Source: Deltaproteobacteria bacterium (GTDB taxonomy: Bacteria > Desulfobacterota > Syntrophobacteria > BM002). Taken from it: a stretch of 55,031 bases of DNA. Positions 43,148 to 53,874 of the stretch are shown here, one piece after another; the first letter of the stretch is position 1; every line of letters begins with the position of its first letter. The notes under the pieces were generated by a model. That model worked only from the letters and a program-made list of their open reading frames with translations, did no database searches and was not told the origin of the DNA. A program made the translations under genes and the position numbers. The stretch is taken from NCBI GenBank assembly GCA_022340905.1, contig JAJDNB010000003.1, positions 1 through 55,031 of the forward strand. The letters run 5' to 3'.

Positions 43148-43669
43148 CTACCTCAGCTTCTCCAGAGCAGGACAATTATGTTGGACTGCAGTCTCAGGAG
43201 GAAAACCCATTGGAACACTACAGTAATCCAAAGGATCCGTTTCGAAATGCAGGACCTCACTGCCATCGAAATAACCATCACCGTCGGTGTCAGCCTCTGC
43301 CCAAGAAGTCCCAAACAACATATACTCCGCGTAATTACTCAGGCCGTCTTCGTCTGGATCCCAGCTTTTCATCTCATCAAGGAGAACCCCCAGGGTTTGT
43401 TCCATTTGAGCCATTGTCGCACTTGCCTTGGCCCAGTTGCCCTCCTGTAACCATCCGCCCACCTCCTCATCGAGACGCTCAGCCTCTGCAAGGCTAACCG
43501 GATCCAGACTATCTCCACCCATATGGCGGCACTCTGACAAACGGAATCGGAGCAAATCATAACTGCTGGCCAAACCCTCGTGGCTTATCTGCTTGTGGCA
43601 AGTAGCATTGGCAAGAACAAGCCAGAGGAGTGGCAACCCCAGTAGGACTAACCTTTTTGGTCTCATCAT
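43148..43669 (-). CDS. Exported protein with calcium-binding TSP3/EF-hand-like repeats
   Basis: A 173-residue protein. Residues 1-23 form a signal peptide followed by a cysteine (VLANATCHK); the -3 to -1 residues (Asn-Ala-Thr) fit a lipobox poorly, so lipoprotein status is open. The second half has two calcium-loop repeats (DPDEDGLSNYAEY and DTDGDGYFDGSE). Its ATG overlaps the stop codon of iorB (ATGA), so translation is coupled to the aryl-pyruvate enzyme. Why a periplasmic calcium-binding protein is part of that operon is unclear. Confidence 0.7.
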   Translation of the reverse strand: MMRPKRLVLLGLPLLWLVLANATCHKQISHEGLASSYDLLRFRLSECRHMGGDSLDPVSLAEAERLDEEVGGWLQEGNWAKASATMAQMEQTLGVLLDEMKSWDPDEDGLSNYAEYMLFGTSWAEADTDGDGYFDGSEVLHFETDPLDYCSVPMGFPPETAVQHNCPALEKLR

Positions 43670-44247
43670 ACCTTATAACCCAGTTCAAATGCCTTCAGGT
43701 TTATCTCCAGAAAGGACTTCTTTGTCCGAGTACTGAGCACTTCTTTCACCACCTTCTCATCGAAGGGCATTTGTGCATGGCCCATTAGGGTTCCAAGCAT
43801 CACCATATTTACCGAGAGCTCTGAGCCAGCCTCGCGTGCTAGAGATCTCGCGTCAAAGGCAATGAGATTGTTCACTTGATGCGATATAGTTTGCATCATA
43901 TGAGAGACTTCCGGATATTGATCCCTACCACTGGCTACGCTGAAAGGAGCTACAGGGCTTGTGTTGCAGATCACCAGGCTATGGGCCGAACACTTTCGCA
44001 CTGCCCTCAACGCTTCCAGGGGTTCAAAAGCCATAAGGATGTCGACTTCACCATCTGATATGACTGGACTCAGTGCGTTCCCCATTACGACTGCCGACTC
44101 AACCACTCCTCCCCGCTGAGCCATACCGTGAATCTCACTCACCACTACAGGAATATCAGCGATCAGCGCAGCTTCCCCTAAAACCCTAGTCGCCAACAGG
44201 GTACCCTGCCCGCCTACGCCAGTAAAAAAAATACGCCAGGTTTGCAT
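43666..44247 (-). CDS. iorB: Indolepyruvate:ferredoxin oxidoreductase beta subunit
   Basis: A 193-residue gamma/beta-type subunit of 2-oxoacid:ferredoxin oxidoreductases, with GVGGQGTLLATRVLGEAA at the N terminus and HGMAQRGGVVESAVVMG. With IorA it interconverts aryl pyruvates and arylacetyl-CoA, using ferredoxin. It follows iorA after 64 bases, a gap filled with CCCTATGC-type words. Its stop overlaps the start of the next gene. Confidence 0.92.
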   Translation of the reverse strand: MQTWRIFFTGVGGQGTLLATRVLGEAALIADIPVVVSEIHGMAQRGGVVESAVVMGNALSPVISDGEVDILMAFEPLEALRAVRKCSAHSLVICNTSPVAPFSVASGRDQYPEVSHMMQTISHQVNNLIAFDARSLAREAGSELSVNMVMLGTLMGHAQMPFDEKVVKEVLSTRTKKSFLEINLKAFELGYKV

Positions 44248-44311: not shown

Positions 44312-46171
44312 CTAAGCGCTCTTCTTTTTCGGCTTTATTGCGTGACAAATCTGCTTGCAGACACTGCAACCGCTGCACAGATGCTCGTCGATTGCAATGA
44401 AAGCGCACTCATTCTCATCTTCACAGTAGGTAAAGGCCGGACATCCAAGCTCATCCAAGCACCTTCTGCACATGTCACATTCGTTAGTCACCCTGAAAAC
44501 AACTTTCTGTTTCTTGCCGGTGATGCGTCTCTCGAATAGTGGACAGGGTGATTTCGAGATGACCACTTTCACACCAGGTGCACCTTCCATAATCTCTCTT
44601 ACCGTGGCGACTGTTTTCTCAACTTGCAAAGGATTCACCACTACTACCTGATCTACCCCACAACCTCGAACTAGTTTCTGAATGTCCACCTTCGGAGGCT
44701 GAGGCCCCTCATCGGTGAGTTCTACCCCAGGGTGTGGTTGCTGTCCTGTCATGGCGGTTGTGCCATTGTCTAAAATCACCAGGACAAAATTGTGGTCATT
44801 GTGGACAGCATTAATAAGTCCTGTGACACCCGAATGAAAGAAGGTCGAATCGCCAACAAAAGCCACCACAGGCTTGTCCTGAGCCTTGGAAAATCCACCG
44901 GCACTGGAGACGCTGGATCCCATACAGAGGAGATAGTCCGCAGCCGCGAGAGGCGGCAGTAACCCCAAGGTGTAACACCCAATATCAGATGGATATATAG
45001 CACCCCCTTCGCCAAATGCTTGTCTCACCGCATAATAACTCGCTCTGTGTGGACAACCCGCGCAAAGGTTAGGCGGTCGCTGAGGGAGGTCCGATGGTAT
45101 TTCCACCTTCGGCGGTTTATAATCCAGCTGGAAAAACTGGGCCATTGCTGATTTGACCAGAACTGGATCGAATTCAAAATATCGGGGCAGTAATTTATCA
45201 CCTTTACCCTTAATGTGGATTGCAACCCCTCCCTCCTGAGCAGTTACCTTCAGCATATCTTCCAAAAACGGCTCCAGCTCTTCCACCACCAGAATCTTCT
45301 CAACTTTTCCAATGAAGTCTAAACAGAGTGATTCTGGGAATGGATAGGTCATTCCCAGTTTCAGCAACTGTACTTGGTTGGCAATATTCAGTTCTCCAAT
45401 AGCGTCCTTTACATAATTGTAGCTCACCCCACTGGTTACAACTCCCCAGGTTCCCTGCCCTTCAGCTCTGTTGAAAGGCGATATGTCAGCCTCCACCCTC
45501 ATTTTTTTAAGCTTCTCCAGTAATGCAATGTGAAGCCTTCGCGCCACCATGGGCACCGGCACAAGGTTTAAGGGATCCTTTACGAATATCCCTCTCACCC
45601 TCGCCTGCTGCAATTTCCCGAGTTCTACGACGGACCGGCTGTGATTTACTCGAGTAGTGGTGCGCAAAAGAACTGGAAGGCCATAGGACTCGGACAAGTC
45701 AAAAGCGGCCCTGGTCATAACCAAGGCCTCCTGGGAATCGGCGGGTTCAAGCATAGGTATTCCAGCGAATCTGGCGTACAGACGGTTGTCCTGTTCGTTC
45801 TGGCTTGAATGCATTGAGGGATCATCTGCACTGACGATGACCATGCCCCCCTTTACCCCCACGTAAGCCAAAGTCATGAGAGCATCGGACGCCACATTTA
45901 AACCAACATGCTTCATGCTGCACATGGTGCGTAGACCAGAAGTAGAAGCGGCAGCTGCAGTTTCCAATGCCACTTTCTCATTTACCGAATACTCGAAATA
46001 CATATTTGTTTCTTGAGAGATTCGATAAAAATTATCCCCGATCTCCGAGGAGGGAGTCCCGGGATAAGTTGTAGCAAAGGAGATACCTGCCTCGAGAGCT
46101 CCTCGAACAATCGCCTCGTTTCCAAGAAGCAGCTTCTTACTGCCGGATTGAGCTGTCAGTAGTTCATGCAT
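44312..46171 (-). CDS. iorA: Indolepyruvate:ferredoxin oxidoreductase alpha subunit
   Basis: A 619-residue thiamine-diphosphate enzyme. The N-terminal domain has GNEAIVRGALEAGISFATTY and the SSEIGD motif; the TPP site is GDSTFFHSGVTGLINAVHND with LDNGTTAMTGQQPHPG. The C terminus is a two-cluster ferredoxin domain (CDMCRRC and CSGCSVCKQIC). It acts on indole-, phenyl- and hydroxyphenylpyruvate. It works oxidatively in amino acid breakdown or, with reduced ferredoxin, reductively in aryl-acid salvage. The operon leader favours the second reading. Confidence 0.94.
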   Translation of the reverse strand: MHELLTAQSGSKKLLLGNEAIVRGALEAGISFATTYPGTPSSEIGDNFYRISQETNMYFEYSVNEKVALETAAAASTSGLRTMCSMKHVGLNVASDALMTLAYVGVKGGMVIVSADDPSMHSSQNEQDNRLYARFAGIPMLEPADSQEALVMTRAAFDLSESYGLPVLLRTTTRVNHSRSVVELGKLQQARVRGIFVKDPLNLVPVPMVARRLHIALLEKLKKMRVEADISPFNRAEGQGTWGVVTSGVSYNYVKDAIGELNIANQVQLLKLGMTYPFPESLCLDFIGKVEKILVVEELEPFLEDMLKVTAQEGGVAIHIKGKGDKLLPRYFEFDPVLVKSAMAQFFQLDYKPPKVEIPSDLPQRPPNLCAGCPHRASYYAVRQAFGEGGAIYPSDIGCYTLGLLPPLAAADYLLCMGSSVSSAGGFSKAQDKPVVAFVGDSTFFHSGVTGLINAVHNDHNFVLVILDNGTTAMTGQQPHPGVELTDEGPQPPKVDIQKLVRGCGVDQVVVVNPLQVEKTVATVREIMEGAPGVKVVISKSPCPLFERRITGKKQKVVFRVTNECDMCRRCLDELGCPAFTYCEDENECAFIAIDEHLCSGCSVCKQICHAIKPKKKSA

Positions 46172-46254: not shown

Positions 46255-47565
46255 TTATTGGGAGAGTCTCCTGTAATCCACCACTTTGAAAGAAGTCTCT
46301 TTTTCTCTGGTGATGGATCCAGGTTCAACCAAAATAATTTTTGGAGTGACTCCGATACCCCCTGCCACTTTTTCACCCATTCTCTCTATTAAGGCCCTCT
46401 GCTCACGCATTTTGTCAAAGAAAAGCTCTTCAGAAACCTCGACCTCTACCGTGAGTCTATCAAGGTGGCCTTCCCTGTTCACCACTATCTGATAAGGGGG
46501 TTTACTTCCTAGGACTTCCTCAAGAAGATCACCCACACGACTCGGAATAATATTCATACCTTTTACGACAATTACCTGGTCGGTACGGCCCATCACCCTG
46601 CTCATGCGGGCCAGACTCCGACCGCACTCGCAGGGATCATATCGCAGGGAACAAAGATCACCTGTGCGGAATCTTATCAAAGGAAATGCCTCCTTGGTAA
46701 GAGTTGTAATGATGAGTTCTCCAACTTCTCCAGGCTGCAAATTTTTTCCCGTCTGCGGATCCACCACCTCAAAAAAGAAGTGATCCTGATTGAGATGCAT
46801 CCCGACCTGATGAAGACACTCGCCGGCAACGCCGGGCCCCATTATCTCGCTAAGGCCGTAATTATCCGTAGCCTTAACGTACAATCGCGCTTCAATTTCC
46901 TCTCGCATCTCCTCCGACCATGGCTCCCCTGCAAGCATGGCAAATTTGAGCGTGAGTGTCTTCGCGTCAACCCTCATGTTTTCCATGCGATCAGCAATAA
47001 CCAGAGCGTAAGAGGGAGTAGCCACGAGGGCCGTGGTGCGGTAGTCTTGCATAATTTTTACTTGTCGTTCAGTACGACCAACTGAGGTAGGAAGCACTGA
47101 TGCACCAATAAGCTCGGCTCCATAGTGAAGCCCCAGGCCCCCGGTGAGAAGCCCGTAATTCAACGTGATTTGCACCACATCATCAGCCGTGACACCGCCG
47201 GCGGTAAGAACGCGAGCCACAAGCTCACTCCAATGCTTCAAATCCTGCCTAGTATAGCCTACAACAACTGGCTTGGTGGCACCTGAAGAGGAATGGACCC
47301 TTACCACCTCTCGCAAGGGAACAGCGAAGAGGTCATAAGGATACGCATCACTGAGATCCCTGCTGCAAGTGAAAGCAAGTTTCGCCACATCATTTAGCTC
47401 GACAAGGTCTTCAGGCTCAAAGCCAAGTTCATCAAATTTCTTTCGGTAAAATGCGACGTTCCTATAGACCCGATTGAGCGTTGCCTGCAGCCGCTCGAGC
47501 TGCAGCTGTGCCAGCTCGTCCTGTGACATACATTCATAATCCGGATCCCAAATTTTCATAGCCAT
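46255..47565 (-). CDS. paaK: Phenylacetate-CoA ligase
   Basis: A 436-residue adenylate-forming ligase of the PaaK group. Motifs are VHSSSGATKPVVVGYT (AMP loop), YGLSEIMGPGVAGEC, LIRFRTGDLCSL and the C-terminal GRTDQVIVVKGMNIIPS. It activates phenylacetate or its hydroxy/indole relatives to CoA thioesters. Between livF and iorA it supplies the CoA ester that IorAB can carboxylate to aryl pyruvate, or receives its product for energy gain. Confidence 0.93.
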   Translation of the reverse strand: MAMKIWDPDYECMSQDELAQLQLERLQATLNRVYRNVAFYRKKFDELGFEPEDLVELNDVAKLAFTCSRDLSDAYPYDLFAVPLREVVRVHSSSGATKPVVVGYTRQDLKHWSELVARVLTAGGVTADDVVQITLNYGLLTGGLGLHYGAELIGASVLPTSVGRTERQVKIMQDYRTTALVATPSYALVIADRMENMRVDAKTLTLKFAMLAGEPWSEEMREEIEARLYVKATDNYGLSEIMGPGVAGECLHQVGMHLNQDHFFFEVVDPQTGKNLQPGEVGELIITTLTKEAFPLIRFRTGDLCSLRYDPCECGRSLARMSRVMGRTDQVIVVKGMNIIPSRVGDLLEEVLGSKPPYQIVVNREGHLDRLTVEVEVSEELFFDKMREQRALIERMGEKVAGGIGVTPKIILVEPGSITREKETSFKVVDYRRLSQ

Positions 47566-47728: not shown

Positions 47729-48457
47729 TCATTCTTCCCAAACCTCCCGATAGCCCTTGCCTAGATATGCTCGTCTTACTTCCTCGTGCTCGAGAAGCAT
47801 CCGACATTTGCCTTGGAGGACGATCTTTCCGGTTTCCAGCACATAGCCGCGATCCGCTATGTAGAGTGCGGCGCGGGCGTTTTGTTCAATGAGCAAAATG
47901 GTGGTTCCCTCTTCTCTCAATCTTCTTATGATCTTAAATGTTTCTTTCACCAGCAAAGGTGAGAGACCCATCGAAGGTTCATCCAGTATGAGAAGCCTCG
48001 GCCTAGCCATTAATGCTCTCGTGATAGCCAGGATCTGTTGTTCGCCACCACTTAGCGTGCCCGCCATCTGATTCCATCGGCCAGCGAGAATGGGAAATTT
48101 CTCTCTGAAACGGTCCATATCCGCTCGTACTGCCTTCCTGTCTTTACGAATAAATCCGCCCATCTCAAGATTGTCACGTAAGCTAAGCGTGGAAAACACC
48201 TTCCGCCCCTCTGGCACGTGAGATATACCAGCCCGGACTATCTCCTCCGCTGGTACCCCGATTAGATCCCTCCCTTCGAAAGTAATGGAACCACGCCTGG
48301 AGGGAACAATACCGGAAATTGTTTTTAAAAGCGTAGTCTTACCGGCTCCGTTGGCGCCTATTAAGGTCACTATTTCGCCCTGGTTAACATGAAACGAAAC
48401 ACCTCTCAAGGCGTGGATGTTACCGTAGTATGTGTGGACACTCTTTAGGGTTAGCAT
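47729..48457 (-). CDS. livF: Branched-chain-type amino acid ABC transporter ATP-binding protein LivF
   Basis: A 242-residue ABC ATPase. Walker A is GANGAGKTT, the signature LSGGEQQ, Walker B LLILDEPSMGLSP; the LivF-type ending includes GYVLETGKIVLQG. The ATG at 48457 starts the family sequence MLTLKSVHTYYGNIHALRGV; the longer frame upstream is not family-like. It drives uptake by LivHM. The substrate here is probably an aromatic acid or aromatic amino acid, given the operon; this is inference. Confidence 0.93.
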   Translation of the reverse strand: MLTLKSVHTYYGNIHALRGVSFHVNQGEIVTLIGANGAGKTTLLKTISGIVPSRRGSITFEGRDLIGVPAEEIVRAGISHVPEGRKVFSTLSLRDNLEMGGFIRKDRKAVRADMDRFREKFPILAGRWNQMAGTLSGGEQQILAITRALMARPRLLILDEPSMGLSPLLVKETFKIIRRLREEGTTILLIEQNARAALYIADRGYVLETGKIVLQGKCRMLLEHEEVRRAYLGKGYREVWEE

Positions 48458-48645
48458 AGTTTGGTTTTTATTTAGCACATATCTTCTGTTGTCTTCGACG
48501 AGGGAAGAGTCAAGCTCCAGAAGCGCAAGGCACAATGCTCAGAATTCAAGATAAAAGCTTTGTAGTTAGTAAGCAGTAGGGCGTACCGTCGTGCTCGCCT
48601 TCTTTTTCCCCGTCTCGCCCCACCTCTCGTCTCGCTCGTCTCGCC

Positions 48646-49440
48646 CTAGATATCTGAATAATCAACCTCTTCCCCTAAATAGGCTTCAATCACTACCGGA
48701 TCATTCTTAACTTGTTTAGGCTTGCCTTCCGCTATTTTTTCACCGAAGTTCATAACGACGATTTCGTCCGAAATGTCCATTACTAGATTCATGTCGTGCT
48801 CGACCAAGATCACGGTGATTCCCCTCTCCAGAATTCTCTGGATCAAGGACGCCAACCCTTCAGTCTCCTTGGTATTCAGCCCTCCAGCTGGCTCGTCCAA
48901 CAGAAGTATTCTGGGCTCTGTGGCCAATGCTCGACCTATCTCAAGAAGCCTCTGTTCCCCCAGAGGCAGATTACCAGCTAACTCGCCTCCTTTGTGCAGC
49001 AGCCCCACGAATTCTAGGTAATCCTTTGCACCGTCTTGGATCCGTCGCTCCTCCCTTCTCATCCACGGAAGCTTGAGACCTGTACTGATTATTCCGGCTC
49101 GACTCTGAATGTGCCTTCCCACCATTACGTTTTCTAAAACAGTCATCCGACCAAATACTTCCACGTTTTGAAAAGTCCGGGACACACCCAAACGGGCAAT
49201 TTCCCAGGGTTTCCTGCCCTCGATAGACAGACCTTCAAGGGTGATGGCCCCATTGTTAGGAGGGAAAACCCCACTAATGAGATTGAAAAGTGTTGTTTTC
49301 CCCGCCCCGTTTGGTCCGATAATGGCCTTGATAATCCCTGAAGTTACTGTAAAGCTTAATCCCTCTAGGGCTTGCACGCCACCAAACGATTTATGCAGGT
49401 CCTCTACGCGGAGCAAAGTGTCGAATTTCTCAGAATCCAT
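48646..49440 (-). CDS. livG: Branched-chain-type amino acid ABC transporter ATP-binding protein LivG
   Basis: A 264-residue ABC ATPase with Walker A GPNGAGKTT, the degenerate LivG signature LPLGEQRLLEIGRAL and Walker B ILLLDEPAGGLN. The helix insertion between (SRAGIISTGLKLPW) is normal for LivG. It pairs with LivF. The gap to livF (48541-48645) contains CTCGTCTCGCTCGTCTCGCC words. Confidence 0.94.
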   Translation of the reverse strand: MDSEKFDTLLRVEDLHKSFGGVQALEGLSFTVTSGIIKAIIGPNGAGKTTLFNLISGVFPPNNGAITLEGLSIEGRKPWEIARLGVSRTFQNVEVFGRMTVLENVMVGRHIQSRAGIISTGLKLPWMRREERRIQDGAKDYLEFVGLLHKGGELAGNLPLGEQRLLEIGRALATEPRILLLDEPAGGLNTKETEGLASLIQRILERGITVILVEHDMNLVMDISDEIVVMNFGEKIAEGKPKQVKNDPVVIEAYLGEEVDYSDI

Positions 49441-49534: not shown

Positions 49535-50491
49535 TCAGCTTCGCTTCCATAAACGTTTCATTTTCGGACTGAGATCAACCAGGCCTTCAGGCAGAAACAT
49601 TACTATAGCCAGGAGTACAGCTCCATAGACTAAAATATCGAAATCGCGGAAAACATGAAGCCACTCGTTTCCCAAAAAAGTTAGCAGCCAGGTTCCGAGT
49701 AGTGCTCCCCAGATGTTATGCATGCCGCCCACCACCACCATCATTACCAGTTTTATGGATAGGAAGAAATCAAAAGAACTGGGACTCAAGAAGCCCACGT
49801 AATGGGTGTAGAGGCTTCCGGCAAGAGAGGCATAGGCAGCGCTTAAAACAAAAATGACGAGTTTGAATCTCGAGGTTTCAACCCCCATTGCGTCTGCAGC
49901 AACTGCGCTGTCATGCAAAGAACGAAGGGCTCTGCCTATACGGGAATTAATCACATTGAGCGAGAACACCAGGGTCAGTACCACCAGCGACCAAACCAAA
50001 ATATAGTAATAGAGTTCATTGTTTAGATCTAAACCGAAGAAGGTTAGTCCCGGAATATCTGAAAATCCAGAGGGACCGCCGGTGAGGGCTACCTCCTCAT
50101 TGAAAAAAATATAGACGATAACACCAAAGCCAAGGGTGGCCATGGCAAGATAATGCCCTTTCAGTTTTAACGATGGAACACCGACAATATAGGCGACCAG
50201 GGCTGTTAAGAATATACCGGCGGGCATGGCTAGCCAGGGAGACAGCGAAAGCTTTGTGCATAGTATCCCAGAAGTGTAGGCTCCCAGACCAAAAAAGGCT
50301 GCATGTCCAAGGGAAATCTGTCCTGCATATCCCATGAGAAGGCTGAGTCCCATGTTGATTAGACTGTATATCCCGACAAATATCATCACGTCCAGATAGT
50401 GGCCTATTGCCCCCACATTCAGAACCACCACTGGAAAAAGGGAAAGAAAGACAATCAAGGCAAAGAGCATTTTGCGATTGGATTTCTGCAT
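49535..50491 (-). CDS. livM: Branched-chain-type ABC transporter permease LivM
   Basis: A 318-residue inner-membrane permease with about nine hydrophobic helices. The segments GYAGQISLGHAAFFGLGAYT and GRALRSLHDSAVAADAMGV are the LivM hallmarks (the latter is the EAA-like loop that touches the ATPases). It forms the pore with LivH. Confidence 0.94.
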   Translation of the reverse strand: MQKSNRKMLFALIVFLSLFPVVVLNVGAIGHYLDVMIFVGIYSLINMGLSLLMGYAGQISLGHAAFFGLGAYTSGILCTKLSLSPWLAMPAGIFLTALVAYIVGVPSLKLKGHYLAMATLGFGVIVYIFFNEEVALTGGPSGFSDIPGLTFFGLDLNNELYYYILVWSLVVLTLVFSLNVINSRIGRALRSLHDSAVAADAMGVETSRFKLVIFVLSAAYASLAGSLYTHYVGFLSPSSFDFFLSIKLVMMVVVGGMHNIWGALLGTWLLTFLGNEWLHVFRDFDILVYGAVLLAIVMFLPEGLVDLSPKMKRLWKRS

Positions 50492-50510: not shown

Positions 50511-51413
50511 CTAAAACTCCTTAATTTTGCTAGCTTCTACATTTCCAAACAAACCACTTGGACGAACATATAAAACCAAAAGCAGGAGCAGGAGCGCTAC
50601 AGCATCCTTGTACCCTGAGGAAACAAAACCAGCGCATAAAGACTCAATAACTCCAAGGAGAATACCCGCCACCACTGCTCCATAAAAACTTCCCAAGCCA
50701 CCCATCACAGAAGCGCCGAAACCTTTTAGAGCCAAAAGGGCACCTCGGTCGTATTCCATAAGGGATATGGGGGTGATTATGGCTCCAGCAACTGCACCAA
50801 TGGCGGCGCTTAGGGCAAAAGAAATCAAAATCATGATGTTAACTCTAATGCCTACTAGGCGAGCAGCCTCGGGATCATCGGCGCAGGCAAGCATGGCTTT
50901 GCCGTATCGCGTTTTTTTAAAAAAGAAACTCAGCAACACCACCACCACCGCAGTTATGAACAGCACCCATAGTGTTTGAGTTTGGATAGCTGCTCCGAGG
51001 ATGAATATTGGTTTGCTACCGCTAAATGGTGGAATAATATACGGATCTTTGCCCCAAACAAACATAGCAATTCCCTTCAAGAGAATCGAAACAGCAATAG
51101 TGACGATAATCATGGTCAATACGGTGGCATTCTTGAGTGGGTTGATGGTAAATCTCTCCATCAAGGCTCCCACACCAGTTACCGCCAGAACTGTCAGAAA
51201 AAATGCTATTGGCAATGGTAGCTTGGCCGTGGCGGTGAAAAAGACCATAATAAGTCCGCCCAGCATGACAAATTCGCCTTGGGCAAAGTTAATTATTTCA
51301 GTGACGTTGTAGATTATATTGAAGCCCACAGCTACCAAAGCGTAAATGCTTCCCACGGTGATACCAGTGAAAAAATACTGAGTGAGCTGTCCCAGCAGGG
51401 AAATTCTTTCCAT
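50511..51413 (-). CDS. livH: Branched-chain-type ABC transporter permease LivH
   Basis: A 300-residue inner-membrane permease. GSIYALVAVGFNIIYNVTEI and NFAQGEFVMLGG at the start are typical of LivH, and KTRYGKAMLACADDPEAARL is the coupling loop. It starts 19 bases after a short gap from livM on the downstream side and 80 bases after livK on the upstream side; the latter gap contains a strong hairpin. Confidence 0.94.
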   Translation of the reverse strand: MERISLLGQLTQYFFTGITVGSIYALVAVGFNIIYNVTEIINFAQGEFVMLGGLIMVFFTATAKLPLPIAFFLTVLAVTGVGALMERFTINPLKNATVLTMIIVTIAVSILLKGIAMFVWGKDPYIIPPFSGSKPIFILGAAIQTQTLWVLFITAVVVVLLSFFFKKTRYGKAMLACADDPEAARLVGIRVNIMILISFALSAAIGAVAGAIITPISLMEYDRGALLALKGFGASVMGGLGSFYGAVVAGILLGVIESLCAGFVSSGYKDAVALLLLLLVLYVRPSGLFGNVEASKIKEF

Positions 51414-51493: not shown

Positions 51494-52654
51494 CTAAGGA
51501 GCCAGGGCCCAAGTGTTGTCCTTCACCACCACCATTTCAAAGGCGTCTTTGGTAAGGCCATTGTGGTCTGTGGGAGAGAAATTGAACACACCGTGTTGAC
51601 CAACGAAGTTCTTTCGGTTCTCAATGTAGTCCCTAATCTTGGCTGAATCGGGTCCAACACTCCTCAGGGCATCAATAACCAGGTTGAGTGAATCCCAGGC
51701 ATGCCCACCAAAAGATGATACGGGTTCATTGTATTTTTGTTCGTAGGACTCATTGTAAAGCATTATTACCTTTTTTTGCGGATCGTCGTCAGCAACGAGT
51801 AGCGGAATATTGACCTTGCCCAGAGGACAAAAAACGCCTTCAGCGGCACCGGCGGCCAGCTCGATGTTTTTTGGACTCCCAAAACCATGGCTCTGAAAGA
51901 AGGGGATGGATGTCATTCCCAGGTCTCTCCAGTTTTTAACTGCCAGGACCTGGGTGGGTCCCACAGACCAGTTTACAATTGCCTGGGCTTCTGTGCCACG
52001 AATGCGGGTGAGTTGGGCGGTAATATCGGTATCCTTGGGACCGTAGCGTTCATCTGCCACTATTTCTATGCCGACTTCAGGGGCTAACCGTAATAACTCT
52101 TCGCGACCGCTGGCACCGAACCCAGTTGAAACGCTCATGATGGCTATTTTAGTGATGCCCTTTTTCAGCAGATAATCATAAATTTTTTCAACTGCATGGG
52201 TGTCCGATTGCGGTACCTTGAAAATCCACTTTCGCTCTGCCACCGGCGTCACAATCTTGTTGCTGGCAGCACAAGAAACCAAGGGGATCTTTTCTTCATT
52301 CGCAATTTTGACAACCGCTAGGGTATTACCACTGAGGCTGGGACCAATGATCACCGGGACATTATCTGTCTTTATTAGCCGTTTAACCGCAAGAACGCAT
52401 TTGGTCTCGTCGCTTTCGTCATCATAGACTATGACCTCCAGTTTATGGCCATTGATACCACCTGCATTGTTTACTGCCTCCTCGATCATCTCGACCGTCT
52501 TCTTTTCGGGTTCACCGAGGAACGATGCGCGGCCAGTAACTGAGAAAACAGCGCCAACTTTGTAAGGTTCCTTCTCTTTCGCGCACGAAAATACCAAAAC
52601 AAGTGAGATTGTCAACACCAACCCTATCCATATCGCTCTTCCCTTTATCTTCAT
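51494..52654 (-). CDS. livK: Periplasmic substrate-binding lipoprotein of liv-type transporter
   Basis: A 386-residue type I binding protein. Residues 1-23 form a lipoprotein signal with the acylated cysteine at Cys24 (LVFSCAKEKE). The mature part shows YKVGAVFSVTGRASFLGEPE, VIIGPSLSGNTLAVVKIANE and the C-terminal lobe (SFGGHAWDSLNLVIDALRSV) typical of LivK/amide-binding proteins. The ligand is not known; operon partners paaK and iorAB suggest arylacetates or aromatic amino acids. AGGAGG stands nine bases before ATG. It is the first structural gene behind the attenuator. Confidence 0.92.
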   Translation of the reverse strand: MKIKGRAIWIGLVLTISLVLVFSCAKEKEPYKVGAVFSVTGRASFLGEPEKKTVEMIEEAVNNAGGINGHKLEVIVYDDESDETKCVLAVKRLIKTDNVPVIIGPSLSGNTLAVVKIANEEKIPLVSCAASNKIVTPVAERKWIFKVPQSDTHAVEKIYDYLLKKGITKIAIMSVSTGFGASGREELLRLAPEVGIEIVADERYGPKDTDITAQLTRIRGTEAQAIVNWSVGPTQVLAVKNWRDLGMTSIPFFQSHGFGSPKNIELAAGAAEGVFCPLGKVNIPLLVADDDPQKKVIMLYNESYEQKYNEPVSSFGGHAWDSLNLVIDALRSVGPDSAKIRDYIENRKNFVGQHGVFNFSPTDHNGLTKDAFEMVVVKDNTWALAP

Positions 52655-52824: not shown

Positions 52825-52850
52825 AAAAAAAGCCGCTTTCGAGTAGCGGC
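52825..52850 (-). terminator. Second (tandem) terminator in liv leader
   Basis: On the minus strand GCCGCT-ACTCGAA-AGCGGC is followed by seven T. It is 13 bases behind the first leader terminator and 170 bases ahead of livK. Confidence 0.8.
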
Positions 52851-52862
52851 CTCTTTGAAGAC

Positions 52863-52988
52863 AAAAAAGCCGCAGGCAGCTGAGTCTGCCCCCGGCCTCA
52901 ATTCTGCAGATTGGACAGGGCTAGCGGACAGACCTCTCCCCACTACAATAGTAAAAAGAGCGATAATAAATCTGGAGAATGGTCTGTC
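52863..52988 (-). promoter_or_regulatory. Aromatic-amino-acid attenuator of the liv-paaK-iorAB operon
   Basis: Four RNA segments can be traced on the minus strand. Segment 1 (52988-52974, GACAGACC...TCTCC) pairs with segment 2 (52939-52927) as 8+5 base pairs with a two-base bulge; the tyrosine codons lie in the loop. Segment 2 (52934-52926, GGTCTGTCC) can instead pair nine bases with segment 3 (52891-52883, GGGCAGACT), the 5' arm of a terminator. Segment 3 with segment 4 (GCCGGGGGCAG/CTGCCTGCGGC, 52896-52869) forms a stem followed by six T. These exclusive pairings, with the leader stop codon beside segment 2, match trp/phe-type attenuators. No experiment supports it; the pairing is by eye. 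Confidence 0.75.
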
Positions 52989-53004
52989 TCATAGAGAAGG
53001 CCAT
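52921..53004 (-). CDS. 27-residue leader peptide rich in tyrosine
   Basis: A short ORF ahead of livK with a good ribosome site (GGGAG, six bases before ATG). The peptide is MAFSMRQTILQIYYRSFYYC followed by SGERSVR. Residues 13-19 contain four tyrosines and one phenylalanine within seven codons (Tyr13, Tyr14, Phe17, Tyr18, Tyr19). Codons 6-10 overlap RNA segment 1 and codons 21-27 segment 2 of the attenuator; the stop lies just beyond. The product itself is probably inactive: its translation is the sensor. Too short to be found by length-based gene calling. Confidence 0.72.
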   Translation of the reverse strand: MAFSMRQTILQIYYRSFYYCSGERSVR

Positions 53005-53046
53005 GAAGTACTCCCGACTCCTTGCCTTTCGGATGAATAATGCTAT

Positions 53047-53075
53047 ACCATAGAAAATAGGCTGGTTTGTGTCAA
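53047..53075 (-). promoter_or_regulatory. Promoter of liv-paaK-iorAB leader
   Basis: On the minus strand TTGACA (53075-53070), a 17-base spacer and TATGGT (53052-53047). The predicted start near 53040 leaves about 36 bases before the leader peptide ATG. Confidence 0.72.
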
Positions 53076-53133: not shown

Positions 53134-53874
53134 GTGAAGAAATACCGGCTTCAGGAACTCGGAAAAATCATCGAATACATCCTCCTTTACCGACCAGATG
53201 AATTCGGACTATTTTTGGACGATGATGGCTCCCTTCCAATCAAAGAACTCATGTGGGCCCTGCATGAGGAAGAAGGATGGAAACACATCCGTTTGGGCGA
53301 TCTCAAAGAACTCATTTTCTCCCAATCTGAGTTAGATTTTATCTTAGGGGAAAATTCTATCAAACTTAAAGAACCGAGGGGTGAGATAAACTCATCCACA
53401 GTCCCGCCTCGATTGCTCTTTTACGGCGCAAAAAGAAAGGCTTACCCCGTGATCCTCAAGCATGGACTTAAGCCAGCAGGCCGTCCCTATGTGCCTCTGG
53501 CCACAACAGAGGAAATAGCCCTGCGTATTGGTAGGCGTCGTGATCCCAAACCCATTCTGTTGACCATCCATGCAGCTCAGGCCCATGATGAAGGCCACGC
53601 CTTTTCTCTCGGTGGTGAATTTCTCTATTTAGTAAAAACTCTCCCCCCCAGCTTCCTGAGCGGCCCACCTCTCCGAGAGTCTGCCAAGCCTGCTAAGGTC
53701 TTACGGCCGAAACTCCCTAAGCCTCGCAAAGTAGACACCCCTGAGATGACTGGTTCTTTTTTTCTCGATCCCGCCAAAGACCCAGACCCGATGAGAAGAG
53801 AGAGAAGGAAAAAGGATAAAGAGCGCAAGCTCCAGAGAAGCCGCGAGCGGCGTCTTAAAAGAACCGGGAGATAA
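53134..53874 (+). CDS. Divergent RNA 2'-phosphotransferase (Tpt1/KptA)-like protein with basic tail
   Basis: A 246-residue protein. Residues 5-75 resemble the N-terminal lobe of Tpt1/KptA (LGKIIEYILLYRPDEFGLFL), residues 95-180 the ADP-ribosyltransferase-like lobe (LFYGAKRKAYPVILKHGLKP to GEFLYLVKTLPP). The active-site Arg-His pair in the usual LRHxP motif is replaced by Leu18-Tyr19. The His of YHGT is Tyr, and both histidines of RxHVHL are changed (RPYVPL). Residues 218-246 form a very basic tail (RRERRKKDKERKLQRSRERR) likely to bind RNA. Canonical tRNA 2'-phosphate removal is doubtful; it may bind or modify RNA in another way. GTG start; divergent from the liv leader. Confidence 0.7.
   Translation: MKKYRLQELGKIIEYILLYRPDEFGLFLDDDGSLPIKELMWALHEEEGWKHIRLGDLKELIFSQSELDFILGENSIKLKEPRGEINSSTVPPRLLFYGAKRKAYPVILKHGLKPAGRPYVPLATTEEIALRIGRRRDPKPILLTIHAAQAHDEGHAFSLGGEFLYLVKTLPPSFLSGPPLRESAKPAKVLRPKLPKPRKVDTPEMTGSFFLDPAKDPDPMRRERRKKDKERKLQRSRERRLKRTGR

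Follow-up and report, generated by a model that had tools for sequence, protein, structure and literature searches.

The 55,031-nucleotide stretch analysed here (the window) carries on its minus strand what is best explained, with a probability of roughly 0.82, as a ribosome-mediated attenuator specific for charged tRNA-Tyr, controlling an operon for arylacetate import, activation and reductive carboxylation toward tyrosine. The analysis shows the sequence, its potential to fold, its conservation and an agreement of leader codon type with operon clade; stalling, termination, substrates and metabolic direction are inferred from these. With sufficient Tyr-tRNA, the ribosome would reach the leader stop codon and cover segment 2, so that terminator 1 (and terminator 2) would form and transcription would end short of livK. 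Under a shortage of Tyr-tRNA, the ribosome would stall in the Tyr run and segment 2 would pair with segment 3, preventing terminator 1, while the freed segment 4 may capture segment 5 such that terminator 2 fails too. The operon is predicted to encode an importer of the Liv type, a CoA ligase of the PaaK family and an indolepyruvate:ferredoxin oxidoreductase (IOR). Between them, these would take up 4-hydroxyphenylacetate or a similar arylacetate, activate it as the CoA ester and reductively carboxylate this to an arylpyruvate, which a transaminase would turn into tyrosine.

Anatomy and folding of the leader

A sequence-only reading of this DNA had placed a leader peptide and attenuator at 53075-52825, and all of the proposed elements were located there (Table 1). 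The promoter and the 27-codon ORF with its ribosome-binding site were found as described, the translation agrees with the four Tyr (codons 13, 14, 18 and 19) and one Phe (codon 17) reported for codons 13-19, and the stop codon (TAG, 52923-52921), said to adjoin segment 2, lies immediately 3' of it. The 1:2 stem holds the Tyr codons in its loop as proposed, but rather than 13 pairs it comprises 8+7 pairs with one mismatch. In the MFE fold of the window leader (-77.6 kcal/mol, z -2.6), the 1:2 stem, the expected six-T terminator and the second terminator are all formed. The alternative nine-pair stem using the terminator 5' arm also proved sound, as RNA starting at segment 2 refolds on its own, with an unforced MFE structure of 2:3 plus 4:5 (-45.7); with segment 1 present, the structure is 1:2, 3:4 and 5:6.

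The window is contig C197 of a 4.1 Mb genome (278 contigs, 94% complete), and a divergent KptA/Tpt1-like RNA 2'-phosphotransferase gene (53134-53874, plus strand) adjoins the leader. Downstream, a terminator-like hairpin lies at about 42939, 3' of the TSP3-repeat gene.

Table 1. Features of the Tyr-led locus in the window (leader peptide sequences here and in the text are written without the stop sign)
Feature	Position	Strand	Basis or remark
Sigma-70-like promoter TTGACA-17-TATGGT	53047..53075	-	sequence; similar box at orthologues
Ribosome-binding site GGGAG	53011..53015	-	6 nt 5' of ATG at 53004
Leader ORF MAFSMRQTILQIYYRSFYYCSGERSVR, 27 codons	52921..53004	-	orthologues exist; translation predicted
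Regulatory codons 13-19, Tyr Tyr Arg Ser Phe Tyr Tyr	52948..52968	-	Tyr runs in orthologues
Segment 1 (AGACAGACCATTCTCC), partner of segment 2	52974..52989	-	fold; not kept in all orthologues
Segment 2 (GGGGAGAGGTCTGTCC), immediately 5' of stop codon	52926..52941	-	fold, leader alignment
Segment 3 (GGGCAGACT), pairs with segment 2 in the antiterminator; also the terminator 1 5' arm	52883..52891	-	pairing in 33 sequences
Terminator 1 (segments 3:4), six T	52863..52897	-	fold, alignment
Possible 4:5 hairpin GCGGCTTTTTTGTCTTCAAAGAGGCCGC, would disarm terminator 2	52846..52873	-	fold, shuffle comparison
Terminator 2 (segments 5:6), seven T	52825..52856	-	fold
livK, substrate-binding protein	51494..52654	-	first gene after attenuator
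livH permease	50511..51413	-	
livM permease	49535..50491	-	
livG ATPase	48646..49440	-	
livF ATPase	47729..48535	-	
PaaK-family arylacetate-CoA ligase	46255..47565	-	below curated PaaK cut-off
iorA, indolepyruvate:ferredoxin oxidoreductase alpha	44312..46171	-	789.9 bits, above curated cut-off of 650.9
iorB, beta subunit	43666..44247	-	model match
TSP3-repeat protein, overlaps iorB	43148..43669	-	probable last gene of transcript

Conservation across the Syntrophobacteria

A genome scan by LivK alignment placed the window's genome among Syntrophobacteria-type Desulfobacterota, its relatives including Desulfacinum infernum, D. hydrothermale and Desulfoferrobacter suflitae, along with numerous metagenome bins. 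Orthologous operons, which the sequence-only reading had named as a check on the leader ORF and its aromatic codons, do carry both: a Tyr-run leader (YYYYYYY, YYYYGYLRRSAL) with the same antiterminator and terminator was found in about 34 livK upstream regions across the class Syntrophobacteria, further examples 5' of orthologous livK being SRSYYYYYYYSGEGSVH, RQSYYYFFYYYNGEGSVH, HIGYYYYGYLRRSAL, GYYCYAYLRRSAL and TDSYYYYYCYYSKLPTAAQ. Many of the orthologous leaders have a TTGAC(A) box with spacing 5' of them. Just 5' of segment 2 stand 3-8 Tyr codons in the 34 leaders, the last of them 6-14 nt away in every case (34/34). Across 33 aligned leaders, 99.4% of cells in the segment 2/segment 3 antiterminator are paired, versus 33-48% when the segments are slid, and 95.6% of cells in terminator 1 are paired. 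Segment 2 (usually CGGTCTGCCC) lies in the codons that directly follow the Tyr run, hence the RRSA that recurs in the leaders. Segments 2 and 3 vary so little that compensatory change in 2:3 is slight, at one pair; the support is therefore one of conserved complementarity, not covariation. Of the features of a trp-type attenuator, the leader ORF with its ribosome site, the Tyr run, the terminator and a mutually exclusive antiterminator sharing the terminator 5' arm are present.

Exactly one ORF of the window has four or more Tyr within seven codons, and both a terminator and a 9-bp antiterminator partner accompany it. Over 20 dinucleotide shuffles of the 55-kb window such Tyr ORFs occurred at 0.10 per shuffle and never with a terminator. 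Together with the conservation and the antiterminator pairing, this refutes chance resemblance, to which a negligible probability is assigned. A covariance model built from the leaders gave matches in 48 of 56 genomes of the class at E<=0.01, a count that includes weak, terminator-only matches. No T-box, riboswitch or other Rfam family matched at its gathering score, and the Rfam near-misses were rejected as family assignments, being at chance level.

At equilibrium, the mean probability of terminator 1 in the orthologues was 0.69 with segment 2 free versus 0.98 with it masked, and terminator 1 was still favoured in most of them even with segment 2 free, so in those the switch must be kinetic. 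The 1:2 hairpin, proposed as a part of the attenuator, stands out in the window, but just 10/34 leaders surpass their shuffles in this respect, so that it is probably optional.

In enterobacteria, the trp and pheA attenuators (trpL, pheL) have leader codons for the regulating amino acid, a 2:3 antiterminator and a 3:4 terminator. The present leaders resemble them in the leader ORF, in both pairings and in the stop codon next to segment 2 (summary in PMC11802643), but differ in having Tyr codons, an import/CoA-ligase/IOR target and a second terminator, segment 4 being able to pair with the 5' arm of the latter. The aroR leader before aroF of Corynebacterium glutamicum likewise uses aromatic codons (Phe-Tyr-Phe) to control an aromatic pathway gene, with Tyr availability having no effect (PMC11802643), whereas here Tyr runs of 3-8 codons dominate. 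An attenuator responding to Tyr-tRNA was proposed for E. coli aroF-tyrA (Camakaris 1980, as cited in PMC2659441 and PMC8632094); as represented in those citing papers, it shares Tyr-tRNA as the proposed signal but is a hypothesis for a de novo pathway gene and not for an arylacetate operon. The earlier statement that no Tyr attenuator was known for this kind of operon agrees with the open-access literature, where none was found described before an arylacetate operon. Tyr would join classical attenuation as a well-supported signal.

Sister operons and metabolic direction

Most Tyr-led loci retain the gene order livKHMGF-paaK-iorAB, with the arylacetyl-CoA ligase and IOR genes together in the operon. 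As only one IorA-type gene was found in the window's genome, the Tyr-led IOR may also serve the Phe-led ligase there. Tandem livK duplicates were seen at L169/L210 (G039:C80), L039, L080 and L085; in G039 and L085 each copy has a separate aromatic leader (YYYYYYV and FYFYFYFFT).

A second operon type, paaK'-small ACT-like protein-livKHMGF (paaK' about 48% identical), occurs in Desulfobacterales and Syntrophobacteria, including the window's genome (contig C11). Its leaders, where found, are Phe-rich (FRFFYFGFF..GGFFF), with the examples MRFRFFYFGFFRFLGGFFFRKSIHGPAR and MDNRFFRFRFFGFFGGFFFRKSAHGRGR, and MQFAGFQTDFPSGGFFFEKSALWLKR in the window's genome; among the surveyed loci, no Phe leader was found before some paaK' operons. 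A third type, iorA-iorB-livH-livM(G)-livF-paaK''-livK'', is present in five genomes of one family and has Trp-rich leaders in 5/5 (FWWCWWW, FWWWR, WWRWWW). Of the signal first proposed, Tyr and perhaps Phe, the Tyr part was supported and the Phe part was not, Phe or Trp runs being those of the sister operons' leaders. In the PaaK tree, Tyr-led and Trp-led sequences each form one clade (support 100 each) and Phe-led sequences fall within a third, such that leader-bearing rows require two changes only, the minimum for three leader states. Independent evidence comes from the phenylacetate-CoA ligase model (cut-off 646.3), against which Phe-led PaaK score 616-644 bits, Tyr-led 485-505 and Trp-led 396-405, as expected if the Phe-led enzymes use phenylacetate and the others related acids. 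Leader codon type tracks both PaaK clade and model score, and the leader codons appear, on this correspondence, to reveal what each operon makes.

Other leaders and clusters were observed alongside these. On C11 of the window's genome, at about 5816 on the minus strand (L150), a Phe-run leader precedes a 329-aa gene and paaK'-ACT-like-livK, and at L212 and L226 Phe-rich leaders (INFFFFD, FYFFSFRGG) precede a livK-livG-acyl-CoA-ligase cluster of another type. No such leader was detected before equivalent iorAB-paaK'-liv clusters in other classes; at L199, L200 and L204-L208, which belong to other Desulfobacterota classes, a livK follows iorAB-paaK' with no detectable leader.

The same leader design was found at further aromatic genes, named here by reading of the sequences. 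Matching leaders precede trpE (WYWWWC in the window's genome, YYWWWYSY elsewhere), DAHP synthase (YYYFYYY), DAHP synthase-tyrA (YYYCFYYY) and shikimate operons starting with an ADH-synthase-like gene or aroK (FFCYYY in the window's genome). Because trpE, DAHP/ADH synthase and tyrA genes share the design, the control direction is that of biosynthetic operons. Individual cases include an aromatic leader (VKPQPYSFFCYYYAITAIEGAVR) with terminator on C11 at about 19250, minus strand (L151), before ADH-synthase-like, DHQ-synthase-II-like and aroD-like genes, and a Trp-run leader (SWYWWWCVCGGVCPLPGE) at about 27740 on the same contig and strand (L151), followed by two tandem terminators and then trpE. 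At L154-L156, the leader before trpE mixes Tyr and Trp (RYYWWWYSYGRVMSTA), a codon content that suggests joint sensing. On the reverse strand of L227 (G272:C106:4062-4391) there are two tandem Tyr attenuators (VYYYYYYYYTKGRNLPAY, SYYYYYYWRGSP), and the gene pair 3' of them resembles ADP-forming acyl-CoA synthetase, perhaps another arylacetate activator; L229 (G104:C16:12711-13033) has two Phe/Tyr attenuators in tandem.

Since starvation switches such attenuators on, we infer that the operons most likely run anabolically, from 4-hydroxyphenylacetate to Tyr, phenylacetate to Phe and indoleacetate to Trp; a degradative role for paaK-iorAB is unlikely, because expression should rise at low Tyr-tRNA. 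Tyr auxotrophy was rejected as the operon's reason, as prephenate dehydrogenase (tyrA) and prephenate dehydratase families are encoded in the window's genome and in nearly all of the class, which would make the operon a salvage route and not the sole Tyr source. Where the sequence-only reading spoke of uptake and aryl-CoA genes, tyrosine supply by arylacetate salvage is the better reading. A catabolic operon oxidising Tyr or Phe to arylacetate, with a leader acting otherwise (for example, with stalling promoting termination), would be compatible with the reversibility of IOR reactions and with IOR in archaeal peptide fermentation (PMC6737245), but is very improbable given an anatomy that fits starvation-induced attenuators and the shared design at trpE, DAHP synthase and tyrA. 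It is also doubtful, if less so, that the Tyr attenuator serves import, with the Liv system taking up tyrosine or peptides and paaK-iorAB carried along for catabolism or overflow. Some Tyr-led operons do consist of livKHMGF with no paaK-iorAB alongside (L046, L047); however, paaK and iorAB lie within the same operon in most leader-bearing genomes, induction of a Tyr-degrading pair under Tyr starvation would be self-defeating, Trp-led operons start with iorAB and not with transport genes, and acyl-CoA synthesis is, according to the account in PMC13285125, favoured by AMP-forming arylacetate-CoA ligases.

The proposed salvage follows the aryl-acid route from arylacetate through arylacetyl-CoA and arylpyruvate to the amino acid, established in methanogens with Methanococcus maripaludis (Porat 2004, cited in PMC4162585; PMC6737245), which shares arylacetate activation and reductive carboxylation by IOR; that route is archaeal and, as far as the accounts in PMC4162585 and PMC6737245 go, without described leader-peptide control, whereas here three operons have their own leaders. 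In Bacteroides the same enzyme pair, IOR beside an AMP-forming arylacetate-CoA ligase, has recently been suggested to be biosynthetic (PMC13285125), as far as that account goes without transporter or attenuator evidence, whereas in the present case direction and product can be argued from the leader codons. Many anaerobes have PaaK-IOR pairs, and from the mere presence of a pair it does not follow whether aromatic amino acids are built or broken down, as PMC6737245 notes for Loki- and Thorarchaeota. Where a starvation-type leader is present, it points to the likely direction, and its codons to the likely product. The substrates of three paralogous transporters and ligases thereby become predictions testable in the cultured species D. 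infernum, D. hydrothermale and Desulfoferrobacter suflitae.

The second terminator

The second terminator noted in the sequence-only reading is present and, as a refinement, probably belongs to the switch. Nearly all Tyr and Phe leaders have it after terminator 1. Segment 5, which forms its 5' arm, is complementary to segment 4, the 3' arm of terminator 1, the complementary sequences being CCCACGGC/GCCGTGGG in most leaders, GCGGCTTTTTT/AAAGAGGCCGC in the window and ACCCATGG/CCGTGGGT in Phe leaders. The 4:5 hairpin of the window (-17.0 kcal/mol) is stabler than terminator 2 (-15.0). A six-segment switch would adopt 1:2, 3:4 and 5:6, with two terminators, when the ribosome is not stalled, and 2:3 and 4:5 when it is, so that a single ribosome would disarm both terminators; this would explain why antiterminated polymerase is not caught at terminator 2. 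If the 4:5 pairing is real, one stall can control tandem terminators.

The six-segment switch is rated near even, because energies differed only modestly when segment 5 was swapped between leaders and because duplication offers another account. The combined reading, in which the arylacetate-to-amino-acid operons for Tyr, Phe and Trp are three paralogues, each with its own product's codons in the leader, and the Tyr and Phe leaders are six-segment switches, is put at just short of even. Terminator 2 may be an independent duplicate of terminator 1 with no switching role, leaving ordinary four-segment attenuation, an account with a substantial chance of being right, if rather under one half: the terminator 2 stem has nearly the same sequence as that of terminator 1, and the Trp-led operons seem to be without terminator 2. 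An independent terminator 2 would, however, stop antiterminated polymerase, and the likeness of the arms is maintained throughout the class and in Phe leaders as well. Against duplication, 4:5 complementarity also beats that of shuffled segment 5 in 37/42 leaders, although a few of those terminator 2 assignments are unreliable; the position-by-position 4:5 count was left out of the proof, as terminator 2 picks are mis-registered in the window's own family. The stem motif shared by terminators 1 and 2 was found in 3/106 non-leader terminators (17 loci), all three in another attenuator, which again speaks against a mere duplicate, and this rarity led to rejection of a genome-wide terminator bias as the source of the likeness between the two stems.
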